From Actinobacteria bacterium IMCC26256 (GTDB lineage: Bacteria > Actinomycetota > Acidimicrobiia > IMCC26256), in the NCBI GenBank assembly GCA_001023575.1, contig CP011489.1:1425001-1489000 (forward strand): a stretch of 64,000 bases of DNA. Reading direction: 5' to 3'. The number at the start of each line of letters is the position of its first letter. Within the stretch, counting starts at the first letter, position 1. The notes beneath the pieces were generated by a model, which was given only the letters and a program-made list of their open reading frames with translations, searched no databases and was not told the origin of the DNA. Position numbers and translations under genes: made by a program. Shown here piece by piece: positions 57,576-62,608 of this stretch.

Positions 57576-57612
57576 TTGACCCACTGCCCAATATGACTAT
57601 AATTATGGTCAT
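57576..57612 (+). promoter_or_regulatory. Leaderless promoter with palindromic operator of the toxin-antitoxin operon
   Basis: TTGACC (57576-57581) and TATAAT (57598-57603) are 16 nt apart, predicting transcription start at 57610-57611, the A of ATG 57611. ATGACTATAATTATGGTCAT (57593-57612) is a palindrome with 18 of 20 symmetric positions enclosing the -10, a likely antitoxin operator. Confidence 0.72.
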
Positions 57613-57886
57613 GTCTGATTCCACGTTGCCGCTCGCCGAAATCAAGAAGCGTCTGTCGGAGATAATTGACGGTGTTGAGACGCACCATGATCGCGTAGTG
57701 CTCACACGCAATGGCCGGCCGGCCGCGGTAATTCTCTCACCAGATGATCTGGAGTCGCTCGAAGAGACGGTGGAGATACTCTCGAATCCGGTAGCGGTGC
57801 GCGCTATCCGTAAAGCCGAGACGGAGATTGACAAAGGCAAATCGTTTAACGCTGAGGATCTCCGGGCCAAGTACCTCAAACGATGA
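57611..57886 (+). CDS. Antitoxin, Phd/YefM family
   Basis: The protein has 91 aa from ATG 57611, set by the promoter; two upstream in-frame ATG codons lie inside the operator and would be upstream of the predicted transcript start. The N-terminal half (LPLAEIKKRLSEIIDGVETHHDRVVLTRNGRPAAVILSPDDL, landmarks only) is the Phd/YefM DNA-binding fold. The C-terminal half is a charged helix that should wrap the toxin. It overlaps the toxin gene by 4 nt and is expected to autoregulate the operon. Confidence 0.88.
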   Translation: MSDSTLPLAEIKKRLSEIIDGVETHHDRVVLTRNGRPAAVILSPDDLESLEETVEILSNPVAVRAIRKAETEIDKGKSFNAEDLRAKYLKR

Positions 57887-58149
57887 CGTGGGATCTTCGG
57901 GTGGCTGCCTCTGCTGCACGATCGCTTTCTCGGTTGCCAGAAGGTGTCGCGGCTGCGATTGTTGAGTTCATGACCGGGCCGTTGTGCGCAGAACCTGTTC
58001 GGGTCGGTAAACCGTTACAACGCGAACTTGCTGGGTATCGATCCGCTCGACGAGGTGCTTACCGCATCGTCTACCGCCTCGACGAGGATGCTCACGTGGT
58101 TCGCGTCCTTCGAATCGAACACCGATCCGACGTTTATCGTGCGCGCTGA
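57883..58149 (+). CDS. Toxin, RelE/ParE family
   Basis: The protein has 88 aa. WDLRVAASAARSLSRLPEGVAAAIVEFM and KPLQRELAGYRSARRGAYRIVYRLD are typical of RelE/YoeB-type toxins, with the conserved Arg-rich strand and YRIVYR. It is likely a ribosome-dependent mRNA interferase neutralised by the adjacent antitoxin. Start overlaps the antitoxin stop (ATGA), coupling their translation. The pair sits in the GC-richer patch after rnpB. Confidence 0.9.
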   Translation: MTWDLRVAASAARSLSRLPEGVAAAIVEFMTGPLCAEPVRVGKPLQRELAGYRSARRGAYRIVYRLDEDAHVVRVLRIEHRSDVYRAR

Positions 58150-59322: not shown

Positions 59323-59532
59323 TTAGGGCCGCTCAGTCATCTCCTCTTGCATTTCATCGTCAAGCTCGAACTCAGTGTCATCGTCGCTGTCATCGTCGGT
59401 GTCACCATTCGCTGTCGTGTCACCATCGTTCGATACTGGCGCACCACAACCCTGACAGAAGTCGGTTCCAAAAAGAGTCTCTCCACATACTTCGCACATC
59501 ATCTCTCCGCCCTCTCTACGGCCGCTACTCAT
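59323..59532 (-). CDS. Small zinc-ribbon protein with acidic tail
   Basis: The protein has 69 aa. C13-x2-C16 and C26-x2-C29 form a zinc ribbon (CEVCGETLFGTDFCQGCG). The remainder is a strongly acidic tail with DDDSDDD and DDEMQEEM. AGGGGG lies a few bases before the ATG, supporting translation. The function is unknown. Confidence 0.68.
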   Translation of the reverse strand: MSSGRREGGEMMCEVCGETLFGTDFCQGCGAPVSNDGDTTANGDTDDDSDDDTEFELDDEMQEEMTERP

Positions 59533-59710: not shown

Positions 59711-60472
59711 ATGACCATTAAGTGCATCACCGCGAATCTCCAGGGCGGTCAAGATGATTGGCTCAGAGAGCTCGCCTCCGAAAAGATCGACATCGCGTTC
59801 TTACAGGAGGCACCTCATGAACTCCCGAAAGAATTTGCTGATGCGTATGACATCTGTAAGTACAACGAGACTGCTGCCCACCCGGCATATCGCTGCCGAA
59901 CACTCATTGCAGTCCGCAGAGAGACGCGTCTCCGCCCAATTCCCCTCGAGGTGCCGACCGCTACTTACCACCGCTCTTATGTTGCAGGAGCTCGGGTTGA
60001 CCTTCCTGAAATCGGCGAGACCATCTTGCTCAGCATCCACGCAAGCCCACGGGAGATACCGGAAGACTCGCCCTACCGAGAAGACTGGAGTGGCAAATCC
60101 CCAACAGATCGTCCGATTGCTAAGGGCGTGCTCTGGGACTCCGATTATGTGCTTGAGACGATTCGAAGCGTAAAGGACTCAAACAAGGATCGGATAATCG
60201 TTGCAGGCGATTTCAACGAAGCTCGCGGCCCGAACTTGCTTAATCCTGAATGGGAGATTTGGGGAACCCAATATTTTGAGAACGCAGAGTCCGAGCTTGG
60301 GCTATTCGACGTCACATGGAGCGAGTGGAGCAAGGAGGTCCCAACCCATGGTGACGCTCAACTCGATCACATCCTCGCAACTGAAGATCTACGTAGCCAC
60401 CTTTTGAATTCAACAGTTCAGGAACATGCGAATAAAAGCGACCACGATCCCATTACTTGGTCAATTACCTAA
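59711..60472 (+). CDS. Endonuclease/exonuclease/phosphatase family protein
   Basis: The protein has 253 aa and all main EEP motifs: TANLQGG (Asn), FLQEAP (Glu), SIHASP (His), VAGDFNEA (Asp, Asn), LDHILAT (Asp, His) and SDHDPI (catalytic His). It is a Mg-dependent phosphodiesterase acting on DNA, RNA, or phospholipid headgroups. No signal peptide is visible. It converges with the beta-repeat gene; 75 nt separate them. Confidence 0.85.
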   Translation: MTIKCITANLQGGQDDWLRELASEKIDIAFLQEAPHELPKEFADAYDICKYNETAAHPAYRCRTLIAVRRETRLRPIPLEVPTATYHRSYVAGARVDLPEIGETILLSIHASPREIPEDSPYREDWSGKSPTDRPIAKGVLWDSDYVLETIRSVKDSNKDRIIVAGDFNEARGPNLLNPEWEIWGTQYFENAESELGLFDVTWSEWSKEVPTHGDAQLDHILATEDLRSHLLNSTVQEHANKSDHDPITWSIT

Positions 60473-60547: not shown

Positions 60548-61114
60548 CTACCACTCCTCGAGACTGGCCTCGTAAAGTCTGTCATCTAAGGATTCGATCG
60601 GAGAATCCCATCGATCGAGAGAAATTTTTCCATCCTCGTGTATCCATGACCTGCGTCCGTTTGGAGAATCAACACTCACGGTCCCGTCTACGCACATCCA
60701 TGCTTCGGTCCCGTAGGAGTCGCGAATACTCTCGTATGCGTTGCCGGCAATCCAGACTCGGCGTCCGTCTCCAAAGTCGATAGTCGTCGTGCCGTCCTCA
60801 CCTACCCGTGCGATGCGTCCATCTGGGAACTCAACACTTGTAGCGGAGCTATCCGTCGTCTTCAGCGTCGCCCTAGGACTGAAAAAAACAAGGCTCGTCT
60901 CGCCTCCATTGACCGTCGTTTTCCTACCATCCGGGAAGTTGACCGTGGTTGTGCCGTCCTTAGCGATACCAGCTCGGCGTCCATCTGGGAACTCAACGGC
61001 GGTAGTGCCGTCTGAGCGGATCGAGACGCGCGGCCCGTTTGGGAACTCAACTCTTATCAAGCCACCCTTTTGTATGGTGATCGAGCCCCCCTTTGGTAAC
61101 GAAACTTTCGCCAC
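60548..61114 (-). CDS. 18-residue beta-repeat protein (Tcp10/CPAP G-box-like)
   Basis: The protein has 188 aa from GTG 61114, with AAGGAGG 5 nt upstream, a near-perfect ribosome site. Repeats of the form VEFPDGRRxxIxxDGTTT start at residues 22, 40, 58, 76, 94, 112, 130, 148 and 166, an exact 18-residue period, with some units degenerate (76 and 130). The alternating VEF, NGR/DGR and DGT turns resemble the single-layer beta sheet of the G-box (Tcp10_C) of centriole protein CPAP. No signal peptide is present. The function is unknown; a scaffold or binding surface is possible. Confidence 0.8.
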   Translation of the reverse strand: MAKVSLPKGGSITIQKGGLIRVEFPNGPRVSIRSDGTTAVEFPDGRRAGIAKDGTTTVNFPDGRKTTVNGGETSLVFFSPRATLKTTDSSATSVEFPDGRIARVGEDGTTTIDFGDGRRVWIAGNAYESIRDSYGTEAWMCVDGTVSVDSPNGRRSWIHEDGKISLDRWDSPIESLDDRLYEASLEEW

Positions 61115-61343
61115 GAAAACCTCCTTCCGAGTGAGCGCTATAAATGTCTCAGCAGAGCAGTACTAGTGGAGGGGTGGGACAACGTGAATAGTGGCAGCGC
61201 AATCGAGAGCTCTTTCGGGGTACCTCGCCTAGTCATGGAGCCAGGCATGATGCCCACGGAGGAGATCAAACTCTCGATCAATCAAAGACAATCTTTCGAA
61301 CCAGGAAGAAATCTCTTGTAGTTGTCACACCCCTGTATTAGAG

Positions 61344-61359
61344 TCGAACATATGTTCGA
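61344..61359 (+). promoter_or_regulatory. LexA (SOS) box overlapping start codon of second HNH gene
   Basis: TCGAACATATGTTCGA, identical to 870-885, is a perfect LexA palindrome and contains the ATG at 61352. TTGTAG (61316-61321), 17 nt and TAGAGT (61339-61344) form the promoter, with the -10 7 nt before the ATG. Confidence 0.87.
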
Positions 61360-62608
61360 TAAACTTAAAAACGCAGTCACCCACTTGCGAGAGGTCTCCT
61401 CACGTATTGAAATCGATGTAGTCGCCGGTAAGGACGCGGCCGAGCTCGTTGGTATCGCCGATGAGATTCGCAGAGCCGGCGATTCGCTGCGCACTGTGGC
61501 TGTTGGACAGGTAGAGCGTACGAATAGTTGGAGAGGTGAGGGCGCGAAGAGCATCACCGAGTGGCTCGCTATTGAGACAGATTGCCCGCAGTACGAAGCC
61601 CAAGCAGTAGTACTTCTCGCCGCCCAACTCCAGCACCTGCCTGTTACCCAAGCAGCACTGCGCTCCGGGGTGCTCTCCAATGCTCAGGCTGTCGAGGTAG
61701 CACGCGGTGCGATCGTCGCGCCGAATACTGAGACACAGCTCTTAAACCTCGCAAAACACGTGACAGTGCGCGATCTACGCGACGCAACCTCGCGTGTCGT
61801 AGCCGGTGCAACCGATGAGGCAGAGCGCCACCGTCAGGTCCATAAGAGTCGCTACTTCAGGTCCTGGACAGATTTCGATGGCTCATTCAACGTAAGAGGT
61901 CGAATGACTGCTGCTAACGGCGCTCTCGTAATGGCAGCACTCAAACCAATACAGGACGAGATTTTCAAGGTGGCGCGTAAGAGTGGTGTGCATGAACGAC
62001 CAGAGGCTTACGCTGCTGACGCACTCATGGTGCTCTGTGAGAAGGCGAGCACGAAGCACTCGAGCGAGAGTGGCGGGAAAGCGACTCGACCTAACGCCGT
62101 GATGAATATTCGCATCGACATAGATGCCCTCAAGCGTGGGCGCACGGTAGGTGGCGAGGTATGTGAGATCGCAGGCGTTGGTCCGATACCAGTCGCGACT
62201 GCGACAGCGTATTTAGGAGAAGCATTCTTAAAGCTCCTCATTCTCGATGGCACGGAGATAAAGACAATCGCTCACATGGGGCGCGCATTACCAGCAAAAC
62301 TGCGCACCGCCATCGAGGAGCGAGACCGTCTCTGCCAAGTACCAACATGCGACGTCACGCTTGGCCTGGAGATAGACCACATCGTGCCCTTCGCTGAGGG
62401 TGGGCCAACCACTTTTGAGAACCTTGTACGCCTCTGCAAACGTCATCACCTCCAAAAAACACATGACGGGTACAGACTCCTAGAACGGGTACCCGGAGCA
62501 AGTAGCGGAGTGGGTGAACTCGCCTCAGAACCACGGTGGGAATGGCGACCACCGAGATGCAACGATCCTGCACCAGACCGAGATATTGACCTAAGTGATA
62601 CAGGTTGA
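61352..62608 (+). CDS. DUF222 / HNH endonuclease, 13E12 repeat family (copy 2)
   Basis: The protein has 418 aa from ATG 61352; the frame opens 10 codons earlier but those lie upstream of the predicted transcript start. It is paralogous to the gene at 878-2053, with an added stretch near residue 230 (STKHSSESGGK) and a different C-terminal tail. HNH elements are C328-x4-C333, DH, and C362-x2-H365. A perfect LexA box overlies the start codon, so the gene should be induced by DNA damage. Confidence 0.9.
   Translation: MFDKLKNAVTHLREVSSRIEIDVVAGKDAAELVGIADEIRRAGDSLRTVAVGQVERTNSWRGEGAKSITEWLAIETDCPQYEAQAVVLLAAQLQHLPVTQAALRSGVLSNAQAVEVARGAIVAPNTETQLLNLAKHVTVRDLRDATSRVVAGATDEAERHRQVHKSRYFRSWTDFDGSFNVRGRMTAANGALVMAALKPIQDEIFKVARKSGVHERPEAYAADALMVLCEKASTKHSSESGGKATRPNAVMNIRIDIDALKRGRTVGGEVCEIAGVGPIPVATATAYLGEAFLKLLILDGTEIKTIAHMGRALPAKLRTAIEERDRLCQVPTCDVTLGLEIDHIVPFAEGGPTTFENLVRLCKRHHLQKTHDGYRLLERVPGASSGVGELASEPRWEWRPPRCNDPAPDRDIDLSDTG

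Follow-up and report, generated by a model that had tools for sequence, protein, structure and literature searches.

A short gene in the window (the whole 64,000-nucleotide stretch of DNA that was analysed) encodes a protein built on a ladder of nine-residue strand-turn steps, which is rather probably a single-layer beta-meander of the cytosol with an edge of phenylalanines on which a partner peptide docks. This small protein would fold as a free-standing antiparallel sheet resembling the G-box of CPAP/Sas-4, with one strand per nine residues and tight [P]DG turns joining the strands, and one long edge of the sheet would present a Phe-Pro ladder to which each hairpin contributes one Phe, at intervals of ∼10 angstroms if standard sheet geometry applies. 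On the opposite edge and on the faces of the sheet, polar residues would prevail. The rigid docking strip formed in this way could hold an extended partner peptide, perhaps a proline-rich one, along the Phe edge, and the decayed repeats and acidic tail at the end of the protein may cap the end of the sheet. Bacterial matches to the Tcp10_C profile are already known, from Legionella (lmi0496) and from the AAWKG proteins of Streptomyces; what is new here is a specific candidate binding edge, recognized in the sequence by six hairpins in a row that carry Phe on this side, with Phe absent from the opposite side.

The repeat gene and its register

The protein has a pI of 4.9 and a mass of 20.4 kDa and is without a membrane segment (Table 1). 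When it was compared with itself, 42 positions were identical at an offset of 18 residues, whereas 5000 shuffles averaged 11.7 and at no offset went above 28, and because the offsets 54, 36 and 9 came next, the basic step is nine residues. Read in an 18-residue register from residue 6, the turns are LPKG, FPNG, FPDG, FPDG, FSPR, FPDG, FGDG, DSYG and SPNG, and within the units an [F]PDG turn alternates with a [K/E/S]DG turn. At least two of the nine frames in register (78 and 132) are degenerate, the DG turn being largely lost and the spacing kept. The initial annotation had described just such an 18-residue unit with nine in-register frames, degenerate ones included, and no shuffle came near it; its sequence observation is confirmed as a whole and its coordinates are exact. 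It had also called the repeats 'exact', which is too strong, as the six units compared have 4–13 of 18 residues in common. Their DNA identity is 35–76% and common residues often use different codons, and hence the array is old and not a product of recent slippage; a DNA-level slippage array was rejected, no tandem array being reported at the gene. The claim of strong translation signals is borne out by a strong Shine-Dalgarno sequence, GGAAGGAGG, that ends 5 nt upstream of the GTG codon.

Table 1. Positions in the window of the repeat gene, its parts and the adjoining genes
Feature	Position	Strand	Description
EEP-family enzyme gene	59711..60472	+	PF03372, 4.3e-9; convergent with the repeat gene, 75 bp between stops
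Repeat gene	60548..61114	-	188 aa, GTG start, nine-residue strand-turn ladder (18-residue double unit)
Residues 123-188	60551..60748	-	decayed repeats CVDGTVSVD, SPNGRRSWI, HEDGKISLD and acidic C-terminal tail
Regular ladder, residues 1-122	60749..61114	-	14 predicted strands, ∼9-residue steps
Phe ladder, within residues 1-122			F24, F42, F60, F78, F96, F114
Ribosome-binding site GGAAGGAGG and 5-nt spacer before GTG	61115..61128	-	
HNH endonuclease gene	61322..62608	+	divergent neighbour; same arrangement in L008

The gene is present in two further genomes of the same genus (L008 and L009), with protein identities of 98% and 92% and no gap, and its ribosome-binding region is largely kept in both. 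Substitutions relative to L009 number 12, 4 and 28 at codon positions 1, 2 and 3, and dN/dS is 0.16–0.21 without indels across the three genomes; the repeat frame is under purifying selection in two sister genomes. The codon-position pattern of the changes also speaks against the antisense frame 60741–61166 as the true gene, and that reading was rejected. The repeat gene was found in one genus only, and beyond it look-alikes alone were found: the weak matches in G043, G046 and G070 are a surface-type protein, a low-complexity frame and an NHL-like repeat kinase. The L008 sequence, CAMDSG010000188.1, is the same locus at 97% identity, and its title, Bifidobacterium breve, is probably wrong.

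Similarity to the CPAP/Sas-4 G-box

The best Pfam match of the whole repeat protein is Tcp10_C (PF07202), the profile that the initial annotation had proposed for comparison, with 62.1 bits, well above the curated cut-off of 36, and with about 28 bits for the best single stretch. None of nine scrambled controls (four shuffles and five sequences in which one permutation was applied to every nine-residue step) matched this profile, which indicates that the match rests on the order of the motif and not on composition or periodicity alone. Moreover, a PDB sequence search placed CPAP/Sas-4 at the top (CPAP at 3.6e-8), followed by weaker matches to the designed propellers Cake and Scone. AlphaFold2 gave a pLDDT of 48.9 for the whole protein, with the lowest confidence in residues 123–188, and of 65.5 for residues 1–122, rising to about 73–80 in residues 21–70; these low-confidence models hold 14–16 strands of 4–5 residues in nine-residue steps, compared with about 20 antiparallel strands in the CPAP sheet. 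For either model the top 11 Foldseek matches were CPAP/Sas-4 chains and CPAP stood above every propeller, although the Foldseek score includes sequence and is thus not independent of the Tcp10_C match. TM-scores to CPAP/Sas-4 were 0.24–0.51 with a large rmsd, from models of low overall confidence, and because scores of at most 0.51 are expected of long flexible sheets yet also of poor models, we take the protein as likely, and not more than likely, to fold like the CPAP/Sas-4 G-box sheet. The G-box comparison made in the initial annotation is therefore right as to pattern and probably right as to fold: the leads in the Tcp10_C, PDB and Foldseek searches speak for it, and the low confidence of the models and the cross-matches to aRib, MiiA and AAWKG temper it.

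The G-box (TCP domain, PF07202; PDB 4BXP, 4LD1 and 4BY2) shares with the repeat protein the nine-residue strand-turn step, the [FY]PDG turns and an aromatic residue at the pre-turn position of one edge. Unlike CPAP/Sas-4, the repeat protein is bacterial and stand-alone, has Phe on one edge only and is found where there is no centriole. Because its strict nine-residue hairpin ladder is that of the CPAP G-box, it is probably a cytosolic binding scaffold, and a scaffold role is reasonably inferred. The V-x-[FY]-P-D-G hairpin motif is widespread, so convergence is a serious alternative to descent from a CPAP ancestor; with repeats this short, and with the bacterial AAWKG repeats matching about as well as CPAP, descent and convergence are not separable. 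The authors of the CPAP structure knew of no other natural protein with a free-standing single-layer sheet (PMC3776556). With a short stand-alone bacterial sheet, the minimal rules of the fold could be put to the test, namely what keeps an open sheet in solution and whether an edge ladder of aromatics suffices to bind proline-rich peptides.

A probable phenylalanine edge

The structure of zebrafish CPAP bound to STIL has STIL prolines stacked against F978, Y996 and F1015 at one edge of the sheet (PMC3776556). These three residues, 18 and 19 positions apart, all stand directly before a turn, and the repeat protein has Phe at the same pre-turn position in six successive hairpins. Six of its seven Phe share a single register (hypergeometric p = 5.6e-8, or ∼1e-6 when corrected for the 18 registers), and the opposite edge reads Q, R, A, N, T, G, A, C, H, with no Phe. 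F78 is kept despite the loss of FPDG in its unit, which suggests that this edge has a function beyond turn formation; a pre-turn Phe may, on the other hand, merely stabilise the FPDG hairpin. The same genome encodes a paralogue of 129 residues (G000:C1:55767–56153, in L007; 55767–56156 as L036:5268–5657), found in this genome only, in which a nearly flawless nine-residue ladder follows two N-terminal CxxC pairs that are zinc-ribbon-like. This protein scores 43.6 bits on Tcp10_C and is closer to CPAP (1.8e-12) than the 188-aa protein is, and its Y45 and F63 align with CPAP Y996 and F1015; the ladder is the same in the two proteins, whereas the first half of the paralogue bears aromatics on both edges. 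The CPAP contacts Y994, H1003, T1005, Q1019 and E1021 correspond in the paralogue to T, a gap, A, R and R, and since these other STIL contacts are not kept there, the ligand should differ from STIL; the repeat protein itself gives no unambiguous alignment at the STIL-specific contact sites of CPAP. The motifs PRxxPxP and PRxxxPxP are too short to single out a partner among the neighbours (PRxxxPxP occurs in 2 of 72 long frames of the window). We raise as a tentative possibility, perhaps a doubtful one, that the genus has a native intracellular peptide-docking sheet with a one-edge aromatic ladder of the CPAP-STIL type, plus a zinc-ribbon version of it; such a sheet might have arisen independently or else be an ancient common module. 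Near the paralogue, L036:3891–4958 encodes a protein without a Pfam match whose stretch VVIESKWDK resembles a PD-(D/E)XK nuclease site by eye; genes for EEP, DSPc phosphatase and PemK-like proteins lie close by, and the region may be an accessory island.

Alternative readings of the fold

The protein might be G-box-like in sequence only and fold as a closed beta-propeller or as a beta-solenoid whose coils span 18 residues, which is a usual coil length for solenoids too. Cake and Scone do appear, with weaker scores, among both the sequence and the fold matches, but the DG turns recur every nine residues with none of the longer loops required by a propeller, CPAP scored ahead of all propellers in the two fold searches and solenoids were missing from the best 50 Foldseek matches, all of which makes either fold improbable. 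The same open sheet might instead serve as a structural or self-assembling strip, stacked end to end or by its faces, and not as a module for docking peptides. Such a role would suit a protein that is repeats and tail and nothing else, and the G-box can form supramolecular assemblies as MORN1 forms large oligomers (PMC7725318); we hold it unlikely, however, as the TCP domain of zebrafish is mostly a monomer in solution (PMC3776556), strongly charged residues run along the strands at a low pI, and one end would be closed off by the acidic tail at the C-terminus. MORN repeats also form a single-layer sheet, as is predicted for the repeat protein, and the nearest solved fold to MORN1 by DALI is the CPAP G-box (PMC7725318). 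MORN proteins lead the viral fold search, but the MORN unit has 23 residues with a conserved GxG against 18 here, and no MORN model matched the repeat protein at E up to 1.

A relationship to secreted or surface DG-repeat proteins (aRib, MiiA, AAWKG), whether the protein is still exported or has lost its export parts, seems to us quite unlikely. The aRib and MiiA profiles do pass their cut-offs on the same hairpins, and atypical Rib (PF18938) reaches 44 against a cut-off of 27; the best stretch, however, spans profile positions 44–66 of 71, so that what was found is partial coverage without an export signal and not a whole 71-position domain on an exported surface protein. No export or membrane segment was seen even when upstream codons were added, in agreement with the cytosolic location first proposed. 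AAWKG proteins (NF038047 'not_Tcp10', from type VII secretion loci of Streptomyces) have a similarly long PDG/DGT repeat stretch, which matches over 78–93% of the query and scores 64–98 bits on Tcp10_C, above the cut-off, and large proteins of the class with a surface-protein-like appearance match as well. Unlike the repeat protein, the AAWKG proteins are 1000–1100 aa long and carry an N-terminal domain of their own (334 bits on NF038047 for a Streptomyces protein), which is absent from the NCBIfam matches of the repeat protein, and their genes sit beside eccB/eccC/eccD and WXG100 genes. In two of them (L016:5895–9200 and L017:3895–6975) G-box-like arrays lie between this domain and a conserved C-terminal end. 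The name 'not_Tcp10' suggests that curators had met such matches and did not trust them as Tcp10; no mention of AAWKG was found in the literature searched. Tcp10_C labels on bacterial proteins are best read as a type of repeat or fold, not as a link to centrioles. A T-complex protein 10 motif is also listed for a bacterial protein of Legionella micdadei, lmi0496 (PMC4256840), which appears there among the eukaryotic-like proteins of an intracellular pathogen and is likened to the repeat protein by this listing and not by sequence; beyond that listing, the literature searched yielded no work on bacterial PF07202 proteins. Membership of a phage or toxin repeat family, against which the G-box idea had also been set, found no support: no relatives turned up in phages or IMG/VR, PHROG matches were weak and partial (8.5e-4 or worse), and a phage or viral origin was rejected. 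A 542-aa protein elsewhere (L010:812–2440) scores on Tcp10_C through a stretch of PDG repeats and has a weak match to a minor tail protein PHROG; it adjoins a small membrane-type protein and may belong to a filamentous phage-like element.

The neighbouring EEP-family gene

The EEP-family (endonuclease/exonuclease/phosphatase) neighbour named in the initial annotation is real, and it is tempting to see the repeat protein as its partner or inhibitor. The two genes adjoin in all three genomes that have the repeat gene and are both missing from the fourth genome of the genus, which is 79% complete; L008 shows this gene order too (HNH, repeat gene, EEP enzyme), and the L009 contig stops short of the HNH gene. 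Moreover, the paralogue also lies ∼2 kb from an EEP gene in a genome with six in total, and both proximities would arise by chance at 9.5e-5 if placement is assumed uniform. However, this test was chosen after the data were seen, and three of the six EEP genes cluster at 28–105 kb, in the paralogue's part of the chromosome, where a random gene has a 10% chance of such proximity. Thus the coincidence of paralogue and EEP gene is weak once the clustering is allowed for. The two EEP proteins are, besides, distant from each other, and at the repeat locus the genes are convergent and hence not one operon, so that we give this partnership little credence. A defence system was likewise rejected, as PADLOC returned nothing but a weak HNH match. 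Also near the repeat gene are a Phd/YefM antitoxin and ParE toxin pair (57593–58149) and a small zinc-ribbon-like protein with an acidic tail (59323–59532), the latter encoded just upstream, on the same strand, of a gene that by eye is DMT-type transporter-like.
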